Assembly: GCF_000745475.1 (NCBI RefSeq)
Contig: NZ_JQJJ01000013.1
Span: 310,001 to 374,000 of the forward strand
Length of the DNA: 64,000 nucleotides
Direction of reading: 5' to 3'
Origin: Allobosea sp. UNC402CLCol
GTDB taxonomy: Bacteria; Pseudomonadota; Alphaproteobacteria; Rhizobiales; Beijerinckiaceae
Positions 11,576-21,862 of this stretch are shown piece after piece (the first letter of the stretch is position 1; each line of letters begins with the position of its first letter). Below the pieces are notes generated by a model. That model had not been told where the DNA came from. It ran no database searches and was given only the letters and a program-made list of their open reading frames with translations. A program made the translations under genes and the position numbers.

Positions 11576-12113
11576 GCGCAGCAGAAACCGCGCTCAACGG
11601 ACCGCATCGGGCCTCAATCCGCTTCGATCCGAGGTCCACGTCGTCAGTGGCCCCATCGTCCTGCTTCCCGCGGATCCAGCCGCCCTCGGCACGCTGGCGG
11701 GCCTGCCAGTCCGCCATGCCGCGCCAGGTACCGTGCGACTTCGCCACCACCGGTATAGCAGATATCGCCGAACGGTTTTCCCAATCGGACGGCGTACATG
11801 GGGTGTCGGTGTGGAGCAGAAGCGATTGATCCTCGATGCGGATCGCTCGTAAGATTGCAACCGGATACAGCATAGACCGCAAGGACTATGCCGACGCCTC
11901 CGGTCGGCCGGGGCATCGGCAAAAGCAGAGCTGCTTTTTCGACACTGGTCGGGCTCGGTTTGCAGATCTTCCGTCGACTCGGGCTGAATTATCGCACACA
12001 GGCAGCGGTCAAATCGGCAATCTCATGAGGCCACTCCACAAATATTCGCTCGATGGAGACGATGGCCTCTTGCCATGCGGGGCCACGAACAGCCGCATCT
12101 GAAAGGCAGCGTC
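11576..12113. other. 538-bp gap without a recognisable gene
   Basis: Several short open frames exist on both strands here, the longest being 131 codons on the minus strand, but none has a convincing ribosome binding site, recognisable motif or normal composition. The third-position GC bias seen in neighbouring genes appears lost. The segment may hold a decayed gene and, at its right end, the promoter of the TIM-barrel/cupin gene. I see no repeat or stem-loop of note. Confidence 0.5.
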
Positions 12114-13109
12114 ATGGGACTTCGCTTCATCTTCATGCTGACGCGCAACGACCGCACGGTCGAGGACGCCGCGCAGCAGCTGCAGACTGCGCTCAGCCTC
12201 GGCGTCCGCCATATCGGCTTCAAGGATATCGGTCTCCCGATCTCGCAGCTCAAGGCACTGAACGCTGCGATCAAGGCGGGGGGAGCGACCTCCTATCTCG
12301 AGGTCGTCTCGCTCGACCGCGACAGCGAGACCGCATCGGCCAGGGCCGCCCTCGACATCGGTGTCGACATGCTGCTCGGCGGCACCCACGCCGAGGATGT
12401 GCTGCCGATCATTGCAGGCTCGTCGATCCAATACTGCCCCTTCCCTGGGCGCATCGTCGGCCACCCAAGCGTGCTGGAAGGCAGCATCGAGGAGATCGTC
12501 GACAGCGCGAGGTCGCTCGCCGCGCGCGACGGCGTGCATGGGCTCGATCTCCTCGCCTATCGCTCCAAGGGCGACGTTCCAGCCCTGATGATGGCGGTCT
12601 GTAAGGCGGTCTCGAAGCCGGTCTACATCGCCGGATCGATTGACACGCCCGAGCGCATCGCCATCGTGAAGGAGGCTGGTGCAGCCGGCTTCACCATCGG
12701 CACTGCCGCTCTTGACGGCAAGTACCCCGCCGGCAGCAAGAGCGTGCCCGACCAGCTCTCCGCCATCATCCGCGACGTCGCGCGGCTGAACAACCATCTC
12801 TCGCCGTTCAGCAAGAACAACCTCGCCGCCTCCTTCGCGGGGTTGCCGACCTCCGGCGAGGCCGTCGTCCCCGGCCGCATCAACGGAATGGCGATCAAGC
12901 TCGTCCGCATCGAGTCCCCCTCGGCCTGGCGCTTCGAGCTGAACGACGACAAGCTCGTCTTCGTGCACAGGGGCACCCTGCTCATGGAGTTCCGCGATCG
13001 CGAGGAAACCGTGCGCGAAGGCGAGTTCATCGTAATTCCGCACGGCGTCGAGCATCGGCCGGCTGCGTCCGCGGGCTCCTGCGAGGCCGTGGTCATCGCG
13101 CCGGCTTGA
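12114..13109 (+). CDS. TIM-barrel / cupin two-domain fusion protein of unknown function
   Basis: This 331-residue protein joins two folds. Residues 1 to about 235 look like a phosphate-binding TIM barrel: strand-rich RFIFMLTR, HIGFKDIGLP, DIGVDMLLGGTHAEDVLPII, VHGLDLLAYRSKGDVP, KPVYIAGSIDTPERIAIVKEAGAAGFTIGTAALDG. The last part, IAGSI followed by GFTIGTA, resembles the phosphate-gripping loops of HisA/HisF-type barrels. Residues from about 255 form a cupin with VFVHRGTLLMEF and the second motif IPHGVEHRP. ATG 12114 is preferred to ATG 12075, as GAAAGG lies 7 nt upstream. It faces the aldo/keto reductase gene of the neighbouring catabolic operon. The reaction is unknown; the cupin may be a metal site or a regulatory domain. 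Confidence 0.7.
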   Translation: MGLRFIFMLTRNDRTVEDAAQQLQTALSLGVRHIGFKDIGLPISQLKALNAAIKAGGATSYLEVVSLDRDSETASARAALDIGVDMLLGGTHAEDVLPIIAGSSIQYCPFPGRIVGHPSVLEGSIEEIVDSARSLAARDGVHGLDLLAYRSKGDVPALMMAVCKAVSKPVYIAGSIDTPERIAIVKEAGAAGFTIGTAALDGKYPAGSKSVPDQLSAIIRDVARLNNHLSPFSKNNLAASFAGLPTSGEAVVPGRINGMAIKLVRIESPSAWRFELNDDKLVFVHRGTLLMEFRDREETVREGEFIVIPHGVEHRPAASAGSCEAVVIAPA

Positions 13110-13200: not shown

Positions 13201-14187
13201 CTAAGCGAAACCCGAAAGCTCATGGGCGATATAGGGCTCCTCCAGGGCGGCGATCTCCGTTTCGGAGAGCCTCAAAGGCAGCGCCGCCAGCGCATCGTCG
13301 AGCTGCGCCATCTTGGTGGCACCGATCAGAGGCGCCGTGACGCCGTTCTTGTGCAGCAGCCAGGCCAGCGCGATCTGGGCGCGCGGAACCCCGCGCTGTT
13401 CTGCGATGTCCCCCACCCGGTCGACCACGGCGCGGTCGGCGCTCTTTGACTTGTCGTAAAAGCCCTTGCCGACCTCATCGGCCGCGGCACGCGCCGTCGC
13501 CGGCTCGTCCTGCCAGGGCCGCGTCAGCCGGCCGCGCGCCAGCGGCGACCACGGCACCACGCCGATGCCCTCGGAACGGCAGAGCGGCAGCATCTCGCGC
13601 TCCTCCTCGCGGTAGAGGAGGTTCAGATGGTTCTGCATCGAAACGAACGGCGCCCAGCCATGCTGGCGCTGCAAGCCCAACGCCTTCATGAATTGCCAGG
13701 CATGCATGGAGGACGCGCCGAGATAGCGCGCCTTGCCCGCCTTTACGACGTCGCTCAGCGCCTCCAGCGTCTCCTCGATCGGCGTCTCATAATCCCAGCG
13801 ATGGATCTGGTAGAGATCGACATAGTCGGTGCCGAGGCGCTTCAGGCTGGCGTCGATCTCGGAGAAGATCGCCTTGCGCGATAGGCCCTGGCCGTTCGCG
13901 TCGGGACGCATCCGGCCATAGACCTTGGTGGCGATGACGACCGCCTCACGCGTCGTGAAGTCGCGGATGGCGCGGCCGAGCACCTCCTCGCTGGCGCCGT
14001 CCGAATAGACATTCGCCGTGTCGAAGAAGTTGATGCCGGCTTCCAGCGCCTTGCGGATGAAGGGGCGCCCCTCCTCCTCACCCATCACCCAGCTATGATT
14101 GCCGCGGGTCGGGTCGCCATAGCTCATGCAGCCCAGGGCGATGCGCGATACTTTGAGGCCGCTGCGGCCGAGATTGCGATAGTCCAT
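13201..14187 (-). CDS. Aldo/keto reductase
   Basis: A 328-residue NADPH-dependent aldo/keto reductase of the YajO/Tas-like group. The catalytic tetrad is visible: Asp and Tyr in FFDTANVYSDGASEE, Lys in VIATKVYGR and His in LYQIHRWDYETP. The cofactor-binding C-terminal segment (GVVPWSPLARGRLTRPW and the final IGATKMAQLDDAL) is intact. It lies 29 bp downstream of the CoA-transferase gene and is probably the last gene of the operon that starts with the AroE paralogue near 20195. It would interconvert a carbonyl and an alcohol in that pathway. Confidence 0.9.
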   Translation of the reverse strand: MDYRNLGRSGLKVSRIALGCMSYGDPTRGNHSWVMGEEEGRPFIRKALEAGINFFDTANVYSDGASEEVLGRAIRDFTTREAVVIATKVYGRMRPDANGQGLSRKAIFSEIDASLKRLGTDYVDLYQIHRWDYETPIEETLEALSDVVKAGKARYLGASSMHAWQFMKALGLQRQHGWAPFVSMQNHLNLLYREEEREMLPLCRSEGIGVVPWSPLARGRLTRPWQDEPATARAAADEVGKGFYDKSKSADRAVVDRVGDIAEQRGVPRAQIALAWLLHKNGVTAPLIGATKMAQLDDALAALPLRLSETEIAALEEPYIAHELSGFA

Positions 14188-14216: not shown

Positions 14217-15746
14217 TCAGTCGGTGAAGATCGCGCTGTCCATGAGCTGCGGATCGCGGGGAATGAGCGGCATGAAGTCCATCCGCTCGAGGATGTCGCG
14301 GCGGATATCGACGCCGGGCGCGACTTCGCTCAGGACGAGCCCCTCGTTTTCGAGGTTGAAGACAGCCCGCTCCGTCACGAACACCGCCTTGTGGCCGCGC
14401 TTCAGCGCCTGTTTGCCGGAATAGGTGATCTGCTCGACCTTGCCGACAAGCTTTCGCACATGGCCGTGCTGTGCAATCGTCAGCTTGCCGTCGCCGAGCT
14501 GAAGCTTGCTGCCCTTGGTATCGAAGGTTCCGCAGAACACGACCTTCTTCGCGTTCTGCGCGATGTCCATGAAGCCGCCGGGCCCGACCGTCAGCCCGCC
14601 GAGCTTGGAGACGTTGACGTCACCCGCCTCGTCGAGCTCGCCGAAGCCGAGGAAGGCCGTGTCGAGCCCGCCGCCGGCATAGAAGTCGAACTGCGAGGGG
14701 CCGTCGATCATGGCCGAGGCGCTGCGCGCGAAGCCGAAGAGCAGGCCCACGAGCAGCGAGCCGCCATAGGTGCCGTGCTCTATCGTCTGGTAGTAGCGCC
14801 CGACTTCGCCGCGCTCCGCCACCATCTTGGCGACGCCCTCGCCGATGCCGACGCCGAAATTGATGACGTCGCCCTCGGTCAATTCCTGGTAGGCGCGCCG
14901 GGCGATCAGCGAACGAATGTTGAGCGGCTCAGGCGGATCGAGCGGGGTGGGCCCGCGGCGCTCGCCGGAGATCAGCGGATCATAGGGCAGGTCGTAGCTC
15001 ATGCGCTGGTCGGGATCGACCACCACCGCGTCGACGATGGCGCCGGGAACCCGGACCGACCGCGCCGGCAGCGAGTTGACGTCGACGGCCGTGCGGACCT
15101 GCGCGATGACGATGCCACCGGAATTATGCGCCGCGAGGGCAGCCGCATAGACATCGACATTCGCGGCCTCCTGATCGAGGCTGATATTGCCGTCGGCATC
15201 GCCGAAGGAGCCGCGGATGATCGCAACATTGATCGGGAAGGATTTGTACCAGAGCAGCTCCTGCCCGCCGAGATTGACGACCTCGACCAGATCCTCCTTG
15301 GCCGAGGCGTTCATCTTGCCGCCCTGGTGCCGCGGATCGACGAAGGTGCCGAGGCCAACATGGGTGAACAGGCCCGGCCGCTGCCCGCCGATCTCGCGAT
15401 AGAGCTGCATCACGCAGCCGCTCGGCAGGACATAGGCCTCGATCTTTTCGTCGCGCGCCATCTCCTGCATCTTCGGCGACCAGACCCAGTGGCCGCCGAT
15501 GACGCGCTTGACCAAGCCCTCATGCGCGAAGTGGTTCATCCCCTCGCTCTTCTTGTCACCGATCCCGAGCGCATGGAGCACGGTGAGCTGGCGCGGATAG
15601 CCGGTCGAGAGGAAGCGGCGCGAGACCGCGCGGAAGGTATGCGTCGCCTCCATCAGGCCGCCGCCGCCGCCGACCAGCGCGACGGTGTCGCCATCCTTGA
15701 TCAGCCCGACGGCCTGATCGGCGCTCATGAACTTGTTGCGGGCCAT
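14217..15746 (-). CDS. Acyl-CoA:carboxylate CoA-transferase (YdiF / propionate CoA-transferase family)
   Basis: This 509-residue enzyme is a family I CoA-transferase with alpha and beta halves fused in one chain, as in E. coli YdiF and propionate CoA-transferase. The N-terminal half carries DGDTVALVGGGGGLMEATHTF and the C-terminal half FGVGIGEGVAKMVAERG. The catalytic glutamate is most likely Glu323 in TIEHGTYGG. It moves CoA between a donor such as acetyl-CoA and a carboxylic acid. The ATG shares one base with the stop of the upstream MaoC gene (TGATG), so both are co-translated. In this operon it would activate the pathway acid before or after hydration by MaoC. Confidence 0.9.
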   Translation of the reverse strand: MARNKFMSADQAVGLIKDGDTVALVGGGGGLMEATHTFRAVSRRFLSTGYPRQLTVLHALGIGDKKSEGMNHFAHEGLVKRVIGGHWVWSPKMQEMARDEKIEAYVLPSGCVMQLYREIGGQRPGLFTHVGLGTFVDPRHQGGKMNASAKEDLVEVVNLGGQELLWYKSFPINVAIIRGSFGDADGNISLDQEAANVDVYAAALAAHNSGGIVIAQVRTAVDVNSLPARSVRVPGAIVDAVVVDPDQRMSYDLPYDPLISGERRGPTPLDPPEPLNIRSLIARRAYQELTEGDVINFGVGIGEGVAKMVAERGEVGRYYQTIEHGTYGGSLLVGLLFGFARSASAMIDGPSQFDFYAGGGLDTAFLGFGELDEAGDVNVSKLGGLTVGPGGFMDIAQNAKKVVFCGTFDTKGSKLQLGDGKLTIAQHGHVRKLVGKVEQITYSGKQALKRGHKAVFVTERAVFNLENEGLVLSEVAPGVDIRRDILERMDFMPLIPRDPQLMDSAIFTD

Positions 15747-16213
15747 CAGTTGGCCTCCGCCTGGCCTGCGTCAGGCTTGCGCGGCACCATCAGCCGGTGC
15801 TCGCCCTCCTGCACCACCTCGCCATGCTGGTTGAGGAGCGCGATGGCGATGGTCAGGATACCCATGTCGCTGCGGCTCTTCGGAATGCGCATATCGGCGA
15901 CGCGGAACTTCACCTGCAAGGTGTCGCCGATCCGGATCGGCTTCTTGAAGTTCCAGCTCCAGCCGAGCGCGATGCCGTCATGGAAGAAGCCGGACTGCAC
16001 CTTCATGCCGTCGGTCAGCGACAAGCCCATCAGCCCATGGGCGATGCGTCCGCCGAACACCGTCGACTGGGCATAAACCTCGTCCATATGGATCGGCGAG
16101 AAGTCGCCGGCGACGCCGGCATAGGCCAGGACATGGCCCTCGGTGACGGTGACGCGCGGCGTCAGGCGTTCGTCGCCGATCTGGATCTCTTCGTAGAACT
16201 TGCCCGGAAGCAT
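15746..16213 (-). CDS. MaoC-like enoyl-CoA hydratase / dehydratase
   Basis: A 155-residue single-hotdog MaoC protein. The hydratase-2 motif is preserved: YAGVAGDFSPIHMDE, with the catalytic Asp and His, followed by GRIAHGLMGLSL. Such proteins add water to trans-2-enoyl-CoA or remove it from hydroxyacyl-CoA. It lies 60 bp downstream of the ABC ATPase gene and overlaps the CoA-transferase start by one base. The pairing of a CoA-transferase with a hydratase suggests that the imported compound is degraded as a CoA thioester. Confidence 0.9.
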   Translation of the reverse strand: MLPGKFYEEIQIGDERLTPRVTVTEGHVLAYAGVAGDFSPIHMDEVYAQSTVFGGRIAHGLMGLSLTDGMKVQSGFFHDGIALGWSWNFKKPIRIGDTLQVKFRVADMRIPKSRSDMGILTIAIALLNQHGEVVQEGEHRLMVPRKPDAGQAEAN

Positions 16214-16273: not shown

Positions 16274-17065
16274 TCAGTGCAGGAGCTGCCCGAGGAAGGC
16301 TTGCGTCCGGGGATTCTGCGGGTTCGCGAAGAAGGGCTCAGGCTTGCCCATCTCGACGATCTGTCCGGCATCCATGAAGATCACGCGGTCGGCGACCTTG
16401 CGGGCGAAGCCCATCTCGTGGGTGACGCAGAGCATCGTCATGCCGTCCTCGGCGAGGCCGACCATGGTGTCGAGCACCTCCTTGACCATCTCGGGGTCGA
16501 GCGCCGAGGTCGGCTCGTCGAACAGCATGATCTTCGGCGTCATGCAGAGCGCGCGGGCAATCGCGACGCGCTGCTGCTGGCCTCCGGAGAGCTGGGCGGG
16601 ATATTTCAGCGCCTGGTCGGCGATCCGCACGCGGGCGAGAAAGCGCATCGCCAGCTCCTGCGCCTCCTTCTTCCGTGTGCCGCGCACCTTCATCGGCGCC
16701 AGCATGCAGTTCTCCATCACCGTGAGATGGGGAAAGAGGTTGAACTGCTGGAACACCATGCCGACTTCGGCGCGCACGGTGTCGATGTTCTTCTGCCCGG
16801 CGCCGAGATCGTATCCGTCGACGACGAGGCGTCCTTCCTGATAGCGCTCGAGGCTGTTGACGCAGCGGATCAGCGTCGATTTGCCGGAGCCCGACGGCCC
16901 GCAGATGACGATCCGCTCACCGCGCGCAACGGTCAGCGCGATGTCCTGCAGGACCTGGAAGGTGCCGAACCATTTCCGCAGGCCCGCGATCTCGATGATC
17001 GGGGCGTCGGCGGATGCGCTCGCGCGGCTTCGTTGATCGGGATTGACTGACATGGTCTTGCTCAT
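16274..17065 (-). CDS. Polar amino acid-type ABC transporter ATP-binding protein
   Basis: A GlnQ/HisP-like ATPase of about 263 residues. All nucleotide-binding motifs are intact: Walker [11 protein letters not shown]-loop [14 protein letters not shown], signature [15 protein letters not shown], Walker [15 protein letters not shown] and the switch His in CVTHEMG. I start it at ATG 17065 (MSKTMSVNP); ATG 17053 is an alternative, and the longer frame would extend into the binding-protein gene. It is the fourth ABC component gene in order after two permeases and a binding protein. It energises uptake of the solute consumed by the downstream enzymes. Confidence 0.9.
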
Positions 17066-17106
17066 TCCGGAGAGTGGCGGGCGGCGGGGACGCCGCCCGC
17101 GCGCGG

Positions 17107-17952
17107 TCACTGCACCATCGAAACCGGGAGCGCGGCTTCGCCCTCGCCCGTCTTCGGCATCTCGGCGAGCTCACCACCGATCCACTTCTTGTAGAGCGCC
17201 GGCAACTCGCCGCTCGCCAGCTTCCGGGCGACGAAATCGCTGAGATAATCGGCCCATTCGCGCGAGCCGGGCCGTACCGCGAAGGCGTTATAGGCGCGCG
17301 CCACGATGAACTTCTGCTCGAACTTGCCGGGACCGGCCACCTGGGCGATGTTCGGAACCTGGGTCGCGGCGCCACCGATCATGTCGACCTGTCCCGCGAT
17401 CAGCGCCTGCACGGTCGCAGCGTCGTCGTCGAAGCGCTGGATGGTGGCACCCGCCGGCGCCGCCTTGGTGATGGCGATGTCCTGCGGCGTGCCGCGCGGA
17501 ACACCGACCCGGACGCCTTTCAGATCGTTCCAGCCTTTGATGTTGGCCGAGGCCTTGCCGATATAGATCGTGTCGTTGGTGGTGTAGGGCCGCGAGAACA
17601 GCACGACCTTCTGCCGGTCGGCGAAGATGCCCATCACCGCCGCCAGCACGTCGACCTGCCCGGTCAGCAGCGCGGCGACGCGGTTGCTCGACGTGACCGG
17701 CGTGACCTCGGCCTTCACGCCGAGATCCTTCGCCAGCATCTCGCCGAGCTCGATGTCGAAGCCCGTCAGCTTGCCGGAAGCATCACTGAAGCCCCAGGGC
17801 ACCTGGGAGACCTGCGAGCCGATCTTGAGCACGCCGCCCTTCTTGATCGACTCCACCGTCTGCGCCGCAGCGGCTCCGGCCATCGCGGATGCGGCTGCCA
17901 GCACGATGGCCGAAGCCAGCGCCGTACGCCGGAACGTCTGAATCCAGTTCAT
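17107..17952 (-). CDS. ABC transporter substrate-binding protein, polar amino acid family
   Basis: A 281-residue periplasmic binding protein of SBP family 3. It begins with a Sec signal peptide (residues 1 to about 30, [22 protein letters not shown]). The mature part shows the family pattern: [51 protein letters not shown] and [16 protein letters not shown]. Family 3 proteins usually bind amino acids or their derivatives. The enzymes encoded alongside (CoA-transferase, hydratase, AroE paralogue) point instead to an organic acid or an amino-acid-derived acid. A 37-bp gap separates it from the upstream permease gene. Confidence 0.9.
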
Positions 17953-17989: not shown

Positions 17990-18640
17990 TCAGGTCTTCA
18001 CGGCGAAGCGCTTCTCGAGGCGCATGCTCAGGCGTGAAAGCGGGAAGCAGAGGACGAAGTAGACGATCGCCGCGCAGCCATAGGCGAGCAGCGGCTTGTA
18101 GGTCGCGCTGGCGATGATCTGGGCGGCGCGGGACAATTCGACGAAGCCGATGATCGCGGCGAGCGAAGTGCCCTTGATGAGCTGCACCATGAAGCCGACG
18201 GTCGGCGCGACGGAGATCCGCATCGCCTGCGGCAGCACGACGTTGCGCATGCGGGAGGCATAGCTCAGGCCCAGAGCATAGGCGGCCTCGGTCTGCCCGC
18301 GTGGCACGGCCTGGATGCTGCCGCGCCAGATCTCTCCGAGGAAGGCGCTGGCATGCAGCGTGAAGCCGATGGCGACGGCGATCCAGGGGTTCACCTTGTA
18401 GCCGAGCACCGGCAACCCGTAGAACACGAGGAAGAGCTGCATCAGCAGCGGCGTTCCCTGGAAGAAATCGATATAGAAGCCGGCGCAGCGCTGCAGCCAT
18501 GTCCGTTCCGAAGTGCGCATCAGCGCGACCGCGAGCCCGACGACACCGCCGCCGACGAAGGCGATCAGGGAGAGAAGGATCGTCGCCTGCACACCCGAGA
18601 GGATGGCGAGCGCTTCCGGCAGACCGAATTGCCTGATCAT
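17990..18640 (-). CDS. ABC transporter permease, polar amino acid family
   Basis: A 216-residue HisM/GlnP-type permease with about five hydrophobic segments (for example AILSGVQATILLSLIAFVGGGVVGLAVALM and YGCAAIVYFVLCFPLS). The EAA loop that contacts the ATPase is TEAAYALGLSYASRMRNVVLPQA. FYIDFFQGTPLLMQLFLVFYGLP is the typical hairpin of this family. It lies 7 bp after the partner permease gene. The two presumably form a heterodimer in the inner membrane. Confidence 0.9.
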   Translation of the reverse strand: MIRQFGLPEALAILSGVQATILLSLIAFVGGGVVGLAVALMRTSERTWLQRCAGFYIDFFQGTPLLMQLFLVFYGLPVLGYKVNPWIAVAIGFTLHASAFLGEIWRGSIQAVPRGQTEAAYALGLSYASRMRNVVLPQAMRISVAPTVGFMVQLIKGTSLAAIIGFVELSRAAQIIASATYKPLLAYGCAAIVYFVLCFPLSRLSMRLEKRFAVKT

Positions 18641-18647
18641 GGCGCCC

Positions 18648-19316
18648 TCACTTCACCGGATAGGAGAAATAGACGCGGTCGATCAGCTTGAACAAAGTCG
18701 CGAAGCCGAACGACATCGTCAGGTAGAGGATCGTCGCGACGATGTAGATCTCGAAGCTGCGGAAGGTCAGCGTATCGATCGACTGGGCGATCGAGGTCAG
18801 CTCCTCCGCCGAGATCGAGGAGACGATGCTGGTCGTCAGCAGCGTCAGCACGAACTGGCCGGACAGAGCCGGGAAGATGATCCGCAGCGCCGGCTTCAGG
18901 ACGATGTGGCGGAAGATCTGCAGCGGCTTGAGGCCGAGCGCCGTGCCGGCCTCGTACTGGCCGCGCGCGATCGCGTCGATGCCGCCGCGGATGACCTCCG
19001 CCGAGAAGGCCCCGCAGTTGAGGCTCAGCGCCAGGATGGCGGCGCTCCAGGGCTGGAAGCTGATGCCGAGCGCCGGCAGGCCGAAGAAGATGAAGAAGAC
19101 CTGCACCAGGAACGGCGTGTTCCGGATGATCTCGACATAGGTGCCGGCCGCGATCCGTGCCGTCGTGAACCGGCTTCGCTTGGCAAGCGCCGTCAGGATG
19201 CCGATCGTAAGCCCGGCCGAGATCGAGATCGCCGAGAGCAGGATCGTCAGCCAGCAGCCGCGCAGCAGCTGCTCCCAGTAGGGAAGCAGGACCGAGAAAT
19301 CGAACTGATACGTCAA
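18648..19316 (-). CDS. ABC transporter permease, polar amino acid family
   Basis: A 222-residue permease related to the next gene. It shows the family start (WEQLLRGCWLTILLSAISISAGLTIGIL), the VEIIRNTPFLVQVFFIFFGLPALG hairpin and the EAA motif YEAGTALGLKPLQIFRHIVLKPAL. It is the first transporter gene of the operon, 42 bp downstream of the AroE paralogue. Together with its partner it would form the translocation channel. Confidence 0.9.
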   Translation of the reverse strand: MTYQFDFSVLLPYWEQLLRGCWLTILLSAISISAGLTIGILTALAKRSRFTTARIAAGTYVEIIRNTPFLVQVFFIFFGLPALGISFQPWSAAILALSLNCGAFSAEVIRGGIDAIARGQYEAGTALGLKPLQIFRHIVLKPALRIIFPALSGQFVLTLLTTSIVSSISAEELTSIAQSIDTLTFRSFEIYIVATILYLTMSFGFATLFKLIDRVYFSYPVK

Positions 19317-19358: not shown

Positions 19359-20195
19359 TCAGGGGATGCGGAAGAACTCCCGGTAGAGGGGAATCTGCTC
19401 GTTCAGCATCGGAAGTCCGGGATGCGTTCGCAGGCCGCGCGCAGCAGCCTCGCGCAGCAGCCGCGTCTGCGCCGGCTTCATGATGATGTCGGCGACGATG
19501 GCTTCGGCGCGCAGGCCATCCAGCGCGAAGGGCAGCGGATCATCCTCGCGCAAACCCAGCGGCGTGGCGTTCACCACCACGTCGCTCGCCGGATCGAGAG
19601 AGCTTGCGGCCCGCGCAAGACCCGGCCAGCGCTCGCCAAGACGGCCCGCGAGCGCTTCTGCCCGCACCGGATCGATATCGACGACCGACACTGTCGATGC
19701 CCCCGCCTGCAGGACCGCGGCGGCGATCGCGACGCCCGCCCCTCCCGCGCCGACGAGGGTGAGGCGCTTGCCCGCGATGGCGTGGCCGGCGCCGAGAAGA
19801 CCCCGCACAAAGCCCGCACCGTCGAAATTGTCGCCAGACCAACTGCCGTCTGCCTCGCGCCGCATCGCATTGACGGACCCCGCCAGCCGCGCGGCCTCGC
19901 TGAGCCGATCCGCGTGACGGCAGACCGCGAGCTTGTGCGGCACCGTGACGAGGAAGCCGTCGAGATTGCCGATCCGCTTCAGGCCTTCGACGACGGCAGC
20001 CAGATCGCCGGGCGACACCTCCACCGGAATCAGTGCGGCATCCACGCCACGCTCGCGGAAGAGCCGGTTCATCATGGCCGGCGCCATGACCTGCGCCACC
20101 GGGTCGCCGAGCACGGCGAAGAGGCGCGTGCGACCGGTGATCGACTCCACGGCTGGAGCATCGCGCTTGTCGTTGACGAAGGAGGCTACCGCCAC
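19359..20195 (-). CDS. Shikimate dehydrogenase (AroE) paralogue with altered substrate site
   Basis: A 278-residue AroE-superfamily oxidoreductase. The catalytic residues of E. coli AroE are recognisable: Lys88 in VTVPHK (K65), Asn109 in GSVNAM (N86) and Asp125 in GDNFDG (D102). A Rossmann motif VGAGGAGVAIAAA follows. The two serines that hold the shikimate carboxylate (S14 and S16 of E. coli) are replaced by Val36 and Ala38 in DPVAQVMAP, and the active-site Thr beside the Asp is Phe124. This is therefore probably not biosynthetic AroE but a dehydrogenase for another hydroxy compound. It is the first gene of a minus-strand catabolic operon facing two IclR genes. Confidence 0.85.
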   Translation of the reverse strand: MAVASFVNDKRDAPAVESITGRTRLFAVLGDPVAQVMAPAMMNRLFRERGVDAALIPVEVSPGDLAAVVEGLKRIGNLDGFLVTVPHKLAVCRHADRLSEAARLAGSVNAMRREADGSWSGDNFDGAGFVRGLLGAGHAIAGKRLTLVGAGGAGVAIAAAVLQAGASTVSVVDIDPVRAEALAGRLGERWPGLARAASSLDPASDVVVNATPLGLREDDPLPFALDGLRAEAIVADIIMKPAQTRLLREAAARGLRTHPGLPMLNEQIPLYREFFRIP

Positions 20196-20313
20196 GGATC
20201 GGGCCCGTTCGATAAAGTGGAACTGGTTCCATAAATATCATAGTTCCACTGCGGTCAAGAGAAGTGACACTGCGTTCCAATTTGAATAAGCTTCCAATTG
20301 GAATGGAGGTGCC
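20196..20313. promoter_or_regulatory. Divergent promoter region with two IclR-type palindromes
   Basis: The 118-bp gap between the AroE paralogue and the first iclR gene contains TGGAACTGGTTCCA (20218-20231), which fits the TGGAA-N-TTCCA pattern common for IclR family operators. It also contains the perfect palindrome TTCCAATTGGAA (20292-20303), which overlaps the ribosome-binding region of the first iclR gene. A further GTTCCACT at 20243-20250 mirrors AGTGGAAC at 20216-20223. One site would control the catabolic operon and the other the regulator itself. Confidence 0.7.
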
Positions 20314-21087
20314 ATGGATCGGGCGATCGCGATAATCGAGATGCTGTCGCGCCACGCCGGCGGCCTGCCGCTGATGGCGATCGCCGACGCATTGGCGATC
20401 CCCCGCAGTGCGACGCATAGGCTGCTCGCCGATCTCAAGGACGAAGGCTATGTCCGCCAGGAGTTCGAGGGCGGGGCCTATCGGCTGACGGCCAAGATCG
20501 TCGCGCTCGGCTTCAGCCACCTGGCTTCCGCCGGGGTGACCACCCGGATCCAGCCGCTTCTCGACCAACTCGCCGACAAGACCGGCGAGCTGGTGACGCT
20601 GGCCGTGATCCACGACGAGAAACTGATCCGCGTCGCGAAGGCGCAAGGTGCGCGGCGCGGGCTGCTCTACAACCCCGATGAAGGCGCCGAGGTCTATCTG
20701 GCCGCGACCTCGAACGGCCATGCCTGGTTGTCCTGCCTGGACGAGGACGAGGCGCTGCAATTGGCGGCCCGGCAGGGCCTGAAGCGCGAGGGATACGGCC
20801 CCAATGCGCCGCGGACGATGCGCGAGCTGCTGGGTTTCGTCGAGACCGCGCGGGAACTGGGCTACGCCAAGATCTTCGAGACCTACGAGCCAGGAACCGC
20901 GGCCATCGCCGTCGCGGCTTTCAGCGAGCGCTCGAAACGCCCGATCGGCACGATCAGCGTTGCCGGCCCCGTCATCCGCATGACGAGCGAAGCGATGGAT
21001 CGCATCCTGCCGCCGCTGCGCGAAACGGCGGAGGCGATCGCCAAGGCCAGCGAGGAACTGCCCTTGTTCCCCGGGACGGCGCACTGA
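20314..21087 (+). CDS. IclR family transcriptional regulator (first of tandem pair)
   Basis: A 257-residue IclR protein. The N-terminal winged helix-turn-helix covers residues 1-60 (IIEMLSRHAGGLPLMAIADALAIPRSATHRLLADLKDEGYV). The GAF-like effector domain includes ELVTLAVIHDEKLIRVAK, GAEVYLAATSNGHAWL and the closing GTISVAGPVIRMT. The ATG at 20314 follows GGAGG at 20305-20309. Only one base separates its stop from the next iclR start, so the two are co-translated. It probably represses the divergent catabolic operon until an intermediate is bound. Confidence 0.9.
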   Translation: MDRAIAIIEMLSRHAGGLPLMAIADALAIPRSATHRLLADLKDEGYVRQEFEGGAYRLTAKIVALGFSHLASAGVTTRIQPLLDQLADKTGELVTLAVIHDEKLIRVAKAQGARRGLLYNPDEGAEVYLAATSNGHAWLSCLDEDEALQLAARQGLKREGYGPNAPRTMRELLGFVETARELGYAKIFETYEPGTAAIAVAAFSERSKRPIGTISVAGPVIRMTSEAMDRILPPLRETAEAIAKASEELPLFPGTAH

Positions 21088-21088
21088 C

Positions 21089-21862
21089 ATGTCCAGTCGA
21101 ATCCGGGCTCTCGGCATGCTTGAAACATTGGCGCAGTATCCGAACGGCCTTGCCCCGCGCGAACTGGCGCAACTGCTGAAGATTCCACAGGCCGCAGCCG
21201 AGCGGACGGTTCAGGGGCTCGTCGAAGGCGGCTTCGTCTTCCGCTCGCCCGATGGCGCGGTGCGCCTCAGCGTCAAGCTCGCGGCGCTGGGGCTCGCCTA
21301 TCTCGGAACCAGCGGCATCACCGACCTCGTCCAGCCCATTCTCGACGACCTCGCCAAGCGAACGGGGGAATTGGTGAGGCTCGCGGTCGTCGAAAGCGAC
21401 CATCTGACCTGGGTCGCCAAATCCCAGAGCGCGCAAAGCGGACTGTTCTACGTCCCCCATACCGAGACCGAAGTCTATCTTGCCGCCACCGCGAACGGGC
21501 AGGCCTGGCTCGCGAGCCTCGACGATGCGCAGCTGCGGATGGTGGTCGAAAGACAAGGCTTGCATCGACCGGATCTGGGGCCCAACGCGCCGCGCACGAT
21601 CGATCAGCTGCTCGAGCAGATCGAGCAGACGCGCAGGCTCGGCTACGCCTGCGTGACCGAGGCCTACGAGGTCGGCACATCAGCCATGGCCACCGCGATC
21701 CGCAAGCGCGGCGTCGGGCATCCGGTCGGAACGATCAGCGTAGCAGGCCCGACGATCCGGATGACCCGGGAACGGATGGCCGAGATTGCCCCCTGGCTGC
21801 AGGCGAGCGCCAACGAACTCGGCGCGGCGGCGGCTTCATCACCCTTGTTCAGTCTTCATTAG
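21089..21862 (+). CDS. IclR family transcriptional regulator (second of tandem pair)
   Basis: A second IclR protein, also 257 residues. It shares long identities with its neighbour, including EVYLAAT, LGYA, GPNAPRT and GTISVAGP.IRMT, so the pair looks like an old tandem duplication. The HTH region differs more (GLAPRELAQLLKIPQAAAERTVQGLVEGGFVF) and is less canonical. Its recognition helix may therefore read another site, or it may work as a heterodimer partner. It lacks a promoter of its own because only one base separates it from the first gene. Confidence 0.9.
   Translation: MSSRIRALGMLETLAQYPNGLAPRELAQLLKIPQAAAERTVQGLVEGGFVFRSPDGAVRLSVKLAALGLAYLGTSGITDLVQPILDDLAKRTGELVRLAVVESDHLTWVAKSQSAQSGLFYVPHTETEVYLAATANGQAWLASLDDAQLRMVVERQGLHRPDLGPNAPRTIDQLLEQIEQTRRLGYACVTEAYEVGTSAMATAIRKRGVGHPVGTISVAGPTIRMTRERMAEIAPWLQASANELGAAAASSPLFSLH

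Follow-up and report, generated by a model that had tools for sequence, protein, structure and literature searches.

A shikimate dehydrogenase family protein without the AroE substrate clamp belongs to the RifI class and heads a catabolic-looking operon in Allobosea

When a protein keeps the catalytic residues of an enzyme family and loses those that hold the substrate, what does it act on? The question is raised by an open reading frame in a stretch of 64,000 nucleotides from Allobosea sp. UNC402CLCol (the window; contig NZ_JQJJ01000013.1, positions 310,001 to 374,000), whose product a sequence-only reading had taken for an AroE paralogue lacking both shikimate-binding serines and acting on a different, perhaps uncharged or bulkier, hydroxy compound. 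By fold and by its Lys/Asp dyad (K88, D125) the window protein is a member of the shikimate dehydrogenase family. The substrate domain of the family, PF08501, matches it with 69.2 bits (cut-off 27) and the nucleotide-binding domain, PF01488, with 20.8 bits, below its cut-off of 24.3. A fold search with an AlphaFold2 model (mean pLDDT 87.2, built from a seven-sequence alignment) listed 50 matches, all of them from this family, with Z from 25.7 to 32.1.

Residues were numbered by a MAFFT alignment against E. coli AroE and YdiB (from NC_000913) and further relatives. Every residue that the sequence-only reading had named is correct in this alignment: V36 and A38 occupy the positions of S14 and S16, F124 stands in place of T101 just before the catalytic Asp, and K65, N86 and D102 persist as K88, N109 and D125. 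The changes extend beyond those already noted, to N59 (L82) and Y215 (M239), and also to H13 (Q35), while P17, T61, N100 and Q244 are retained as P39, T84, N123 and Q267. No replacement serine for S14 or S16 was found at these positions in the sequence alignment of the window protein. S14, S16 and Y215 hold the carboxylate in AroE and are called the clamp here. At residues 173-175 the window protein has DID, an NAD-type cofactor motif. According to excerpts of PMC7752791 this motif is correlated with a preference for NADH/NAD+, which fits a catabolic oxidation.

Identity with canonical AroE or YdiB is ruled out by scores, by residues (V36, A38, M239) and by the tree described below: the best equivalog scores 175.3 bits (cut-off 252), and TIGR00507 scores 143.1 (cut-off 200.2). 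YdiB, the E. coli quinate/shikimate dehydrogenase, resembles the window protein in fold, in dyad and in the position of its gene near that of the YdiF CoA transferase, but it keeps both serines, T101 and Y215, and the two proteins are 27% identical. The best match in both sequence and fold is PDB 4k28 (E 5e-43; Z 32.1, rmsd 2.3, 258 residues), presumably RifI2 of Pseudomonas putida (the record names a shikimate dehydrogenase family protein), although fold ranks within one unit of Z are tied, as with 3tnl (31.4 vs 32.1). Ael1 (3pwz), with an E of 3e-20 and a Z of 27.9 that places it 26th among the 50 matches listed, was rejected as a close relative. With about 35-37% identity to the window protein, 4k28 has V at S14, V at N59 and T at Y215; it differs in keeping the second serine (QVKSP), in having V rather than F before the catalytic Asp, and in having DPS rather than DID. 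RifI2 is said to be NAD+-specific and to have low activity on shikimate.

Relatives were drawn from plasmid records, genome contigs and further genomes, and all were found by their similarity to the window protein; an exact-pattern protein scan of the genome contigs gave nine loci, four of them (L017-L020) distant. The alignment holds 108 sequences, after removal of one with fewer than 200 aligned residues (L116), a duplicate copy of the window protein and two exact duplicates. An IQ-TREE tree was built from 56 of the 108, thinned at 58% identity with 22 retained by choice, and several of its inner nodes are weakly supported (21-54). In this tree a superclade that contains the window protein and 4k28 stands apart from AroE and YdiB with a UFBoot of 100. 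Within it the window clade and the RifI proteins of AHBA clusters, the latter with two actinomycete relatives, are sister groups (UFBoot 80), and window, RifI and a Rhodococcus sequence (L010) group together with 98. The window protein is therefore of the RifI class by tree grouping. Its identity to the dehydrogenases of AHBA-type clusters is 51-56%, and it shows the RifI-class motif, defined from the present alignment and not from a paper, of having no Ser at S14, no Asn at N59 and no Tyr at Y215. Orthologues with at least 61% identity occur in five of the 25 genomes of the window genus, the window genome counted, and Bosea robiniae (L013) and another genome of the window genus (G022) have identical dehydrogenases. 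A member of the sister clade (L079) has ABC and luciferase-like genes nearby, none of which names a substrate.

The RifI proteins of AHBA clusters share with the window protein V at S14, F at T101, M at Y215 and the lack of Asn at N59. One of them, on a Streptomyces plasmid (L022), also lacks the second serine (QVQAP), while another (L080, QVRSP) keeps it. The gene order at L022 is rifG-H-I-K-L-M-N, names that we assigned from gene order and family, beside a polyketide synthase and an arylamine N-acetyltransferase; the Pfam families there are DHQ synthase, class II DAHP synthase, DegT aminotransferase, Gfo/Idh oxidoreductase, ROK and type II DHQ dehydratase, and L080 has the same AHBA gene set. 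RifI in the strict sense, that is, in an AHBA cluster with rifG, rifH and rifK, was rejected for the window protein, whose gene has IclR, ABC, MaoC, CoA transferase and aldo/keto reductase neighbours: RifI belongs to actinomycete antibiotic clusters, whereas the window gene is at the head of a catabolic-looking ABC/MaoC/CoA-transferase operon.

The residue observation is explained by membership in this known class. In the superclade we counted 88 sequences, 44 placed by the tree itself and 44 assigned through the tree sequence to which they are most identical, which describe the relatives of the window protein and not the whole family. None of the 88 has Ser at S14, Asn at N59 or Tyr at Y215; both serines are missing in 61, the other 27 having Ser at S16, and Phe occupies the T101 position in 67. 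Throughout the alignment K65 and D102 are kept (108/108), as is N86 (107/108). Judged by these aligned residues, clamp loss is a trait of the class and not an accident of the window protein. The superclade has gained R112 (72/88), R113 (62/88) and N77 (84/88), which are candidates for substrate contact, and we know of no substrate-bound structure of the RifI class. A clear structural question is whether the class binds a carboxylate-bearing substrate in the absence of the serine/tyrosine clamp.

Does the loss of both serines point to an uncharged substrate? Plant quinate dehydrogenases keep the first serine, and unlike the window protein they are fused to a DHQ dehydratase domain without activity. 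Those of the EcQDHa type resemble the window protein in lacking the second serine (Ser338Gly) and in having the DID motif, and Ser338Gly improves their quinate dehydrogenase activity, the substrate being a carboxylic acid (both from excerpts of PMC7752791). RifI, an aminoshikimate dehydrogenase, is reported to reduce aminodehydroshikimate, also a carboxylic acid (PMC8788734, in part). Within the superclade, a subclade with Phe at S14 (n = 28) lacks the second serine as well in 25 sequences, and 24 of its 28 genes have DHQ dehydratase, QuiC, HPPD-type or related markers within 9 kb, in strains that are related and not independent; as a rough control, such markers occurred at none of 40 regions fetched around CoA transferases. 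Among the 61 sequences lacking both serines, 30 have a marker nearby, 30 do not, and one, the window protein, was left unscored. These context labels come from best blastp matches (E 1e-8) against 44 reference proteins picked by hand from annotated loci, so that genes beyond the set carry no label, and the labels MFS, SDR, ABC ATPase and AKR are loose. A Klebsiella relative adjoins an MFS transporter and a QuiC-family protein (NF042435, 775 bits, below the cut-off of 1200).

Since relatives that act on acids, or are linked to them, have the same losses, the lack of both serines is no pointer to an uncharged substrate. The proposal of a different substrate thus survives in part: the enzyme probably acts on something other than plain shikimate, because the curated AroE cut-offs are missed and the protein falls in the RifI superclade, but the step from serine loss to an uncharged compound is not supported, the relatives with the same losses including RifI and enzymes linked to DHQ dehydratase or QuiC. 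A polyol or keto sugar as substrate would agree with the more hydrophobic pocket of the window protein (V36, A38, L82, F124, M239) and has a solved precedent in 5-ketofructose reductase (7cok), the second-best PDB match by sequence, which acts on an uncharged sugar and lacks both serines, with Asn and Thr in their places. However, 7cok has retained N59 and T101 and does not group with the RifI superclade, and according to excerpts of PMC7954740 a Clostridium protein resembling a 5-ketofructose reductase is inactive on 5-ketofructose, so that similarity does not carry this activity. The nearest relatives of the window protein are moreover linked to acid substrates, the CoA transferase and MaoC genes of its operon point to acids, and paralogues of its solute-binding protein adjoin DHQ dehydratases. 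An uncharged substrate is thus unlikely for the window enzyme, and we give a polyol or keto sugar only a slim chance.

The features around the gene are collected in Table 1. Two IclR regulators, the ABC transporter, MaoC, CoA transferase and aldo/keto reductase genes are present in all eight loci of the window clade (the window, L006, L012, L013, L014, L077, L078 and, in Shinella, L008), the Shinella locus having the same set in another order, plus a Zn-alcohol dehydrogenase. A GGAA-N4-TTCC palindrome lies upstream of the dehydrogenase gene in all seven Bosea-type intergenic regions, and Shinella has a similar one between an IclR gene and the next gene; this conservation fits IclR control of the operon. 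In the seven Bosea-type loci the dehydrogenase gene is the first after the IclR pair, and in Shinella it lies inside the cluster. Such a conserved position speaks against the idea that the gene is a relic or that its product moonlights and has no dehydrogenase activity, as do the intact frame and the retained dyad and nucleotide-binding-loop glycines; the altered substrate-binding residues would be in keeping with it, and we consider it highly improbable. Beside the operon, at 12075-13109 (+), is a gene for a 344-residue protein with a weak C-terminal cupin match (26.5 bits; cut-off 27.2) and, under the limits applied, no other match to Pfam or NCBIfam.

Table 1. Features around the dehydrogenase gene, with their positions in the window
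Feature	Position	Strand	Families and remarks
RifI-class shikimate dehydrogenase family protein	19359..20195	-	278 aa, GTG start
Imperfect palindrome TGGAACTGGTTCCA upstream of the dehydrogenase gene	20218..20231		possible IclR-type operator
IclR-family regulator 1, divergent	20314..21087	+	PF01614 and PF09339
IclR-family regulator 2	21089..21862	+	PF01614 and PF09339
Polar-amino-acid-type ABC permease	18648..19316	-	PF00528; conserved operon
Polar-amino-acid-type ABC permease	17990..18640	-	PF00528; conserved operon
Family 3 solute-binding protein	17107..17952	-	PF00497
ABC ATPase	16274..17110	-	PF00005
MaoC-type hydratase/dehydratase	15746..16213	-	PF01575; PDB relatives include enoyl-CoA hydratases and PaaZ
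Class I CoA transferase, YdiF type	14217..15746	-	PF01144; 2ahu YdiF E 3e-133, residues 5-509 of 509
Aldo/keto reductase, last gene of the conserved block	13201..14187	-	PF00248

The company of a CoA transferase and a MaoC protein brings up another possibility, namely that the substrate is a CoA thioester: the CoA transferase would mask the carboxylate, MaoC would hydrate or dehydrate a ring acyl-CoA and the dehydrogenase would oxidise a ring hydroxyl, in which case clamp loss would be a direct adaptation. Beyond the eight window-clade loci, all of which have both genes, CoA transferase and MaoC genes are also found near eight superclade members outside that clade (L072, L081, L088, L090, L092, L093, L100 and L103), several of which are close relatives, L072 having supplied reference proteins. 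Support of the same kind comes from E. coli, where ydiB, aroD and the gene for the YdiF CoA transferase stand in a row (NC_000913, 1773789-1777182), a row that echoes the dehydrogenase/CoA-transferase pairing of the window operon. On the other hand, RifI and enzymes linked to QuiC or DHQ dehydratase have lost these residues too and lack such CoA genes, the classical pocket of the family is small, and the association is weak in reverse: an AroE-like gene was found in only three of 40 regions around CoA transferases (L157, L169, L175). These 40 were taken from 71 listed CoA-transferase places (59 of 199 genomes) with 38-52% similarity, all but three at most 48% alike; the window and G873, both with an AroE-like gene, were left aside, and 39 regions are centred, one (L190) ending before its CoA transferase. 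A tight coupling of CoA transferase and AroE-like genes as a general rule is accordingly not claimed, and we rate a thioester substrate as rather unlikely. The window genome has a second YdiF-type CoA transferase (41-42%) near another polar-amino-acid-type ABC transporter, at about 223-243 kb of contig C11, and no AroE-like gene was found in that region. Neither publications combining 'shikimate dehydrogenase', 'MaoC' and 'CoA transferase' nor any on aminoquinate turned up in a literature search that covered few subscription journals.

Further clues to the substrate come from other genes. Two of the eight window-clade loci (L013 and L014) have a QuiC-like gene on the same strand, 61 and 63 bp beyond the aldo/keto reductase gene, its 3' end lying outside the stretches read; at the other six no such gene was found in the stretch seen, and the window genome has a 91% identical copy on another contig. 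No gene near the window operon was labelled as a DHQ or DHS dehydratase. The solute-binding protein of the operon has 36 other matches in its own genome, and the two best (E 2e-54 and 7e-54) both have genes for type II DHQ dehydratases no more than 3 kb away, of which the genome has only three, all at these two places; were ranks random, the chance of both top paralogues being so linked would be 1 in 630. It may be that one of the three dehydratases serves biosynthesis. The best PDB matches of the binding protein (amino-acid binders, ancestral reconstructions and proteins of the cyclohexadienyl dehydratase type) are at superfamily level and name no ligand.

Contig C13 of the same genome, at about 156-198 kb, has three more RifI-class genes (L110, L111, L198) in a stretch of 18 kb. 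One of these shares its operon with two type II DHQ dehydratase genes and an ABC transporter resembling that of the window, and a QuiC-like gene follows at 195.9 kb; the region looks like a hydroaromatic catabolic island. With these three genes in the genome, one accompanied by DHQ dehydratases, the acid handled by the window enzyme may be a variant one, namely an amino-, deoxy- or CoA-bound analogue. As to the first of these, an aminoshikimate- or aminoquinate-like substrate, with an operon that degrades such acids of actinomycete origin, is suggested by RifI, the closest characterised relative, being an aminoshikimate dehydrogenase and by the transporter being of the polar amino acid type. 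Nevertheless, the same transporter type serves DHQ dehydratase-linked operons, no aminotransferase or deaminase family was found among the ten proteins scanned, and the sister grouping with RifI has a support of only 80; an amino-hydroaromatic acid in particular therefore appears improbable to us.

The explanation that we consider probable, taken as a whole, is that of an NAD+-dependent catabolic hydroaromatic-acid dehydrogenase of the RifI class, supplied by the import system of its own operon. It is built on what was observed of class membership, residue correspondences, operon conservation and the families of the neighbouring genes. The linked polar-amino-acid-type ABC transporter, under IclR control, would bring in a hydroaromatic carboxylic acid, quinate- or shikimate-like and possibly amino- or deoxy-substituted, and the K88/D125 dyad, probably with NAD+, would oxidise a ring hydroxyl. 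The keto product would then be handed on to the CoA transferase, MaoC and aldo/keto reductase, and some strains would also use a QuiC-like 3-dehydroshikimate dehydratase. The serine/tyrosine clamp of AroE may have been given up early in the class in favour of another binding mode. The use of NAD, the substrate class, the direction, the regulation, the order of steps and a single early clamp loss are what we infer here, and an altered hydroaromatic acid is our best guess for the substrate.

Points against this explanation are that free-acid routes for quinate and shikimate need neither a CoA transferase nor MaoC, that the window operon has no dehydratase of the DHQ or DHS kind, and that six of the eight clade loci show no QuiC-like gene in the stretch seen. 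One may also consider a new CoA-linked route for hydroaromatic acids, made up of the ABC transporter, the YdiF-type transferase, MaoC and the RifI-class dehydrogenase, together with a RifI superclade that grips the C1 carboxylate or thioester by another clamp, perhaps R112/R113 or N77, after a single exchange. This we hold to be doubtful; if true, a single clamp exchange would have opened the family to new substrates.

Many of the plasmid records examined give proteins of the RifI superclade the name 'shikimate dehydrogenase', which may mislead given that none of the 88 has the full AroE substrate clamp. Gene contexts divide the superclade into groups by partner enzymes, each suggesting a substrate class. 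The Klebsiella relative (L011) is on a record labelled as a plasmid (NZ_CP079608.1), in which chromosomal-looking genes (pykF, sufE and that of the major outer membrane lipoprotein) surround the RifI-class gene, possibly reflecting an assembly or labelling problem. In a separate group of the superclade, with the motif HV(K/Q/L)(T/A)P (L074, L089, L105, L106, L107, L109, L117, L119 and L131), a GMC oxidoreductase is encoded within 9 kb in all nine cases, an SDR in eight and a thiamine-diphosphate enzyme in four, a context that is an unnamed catabolic cluster.
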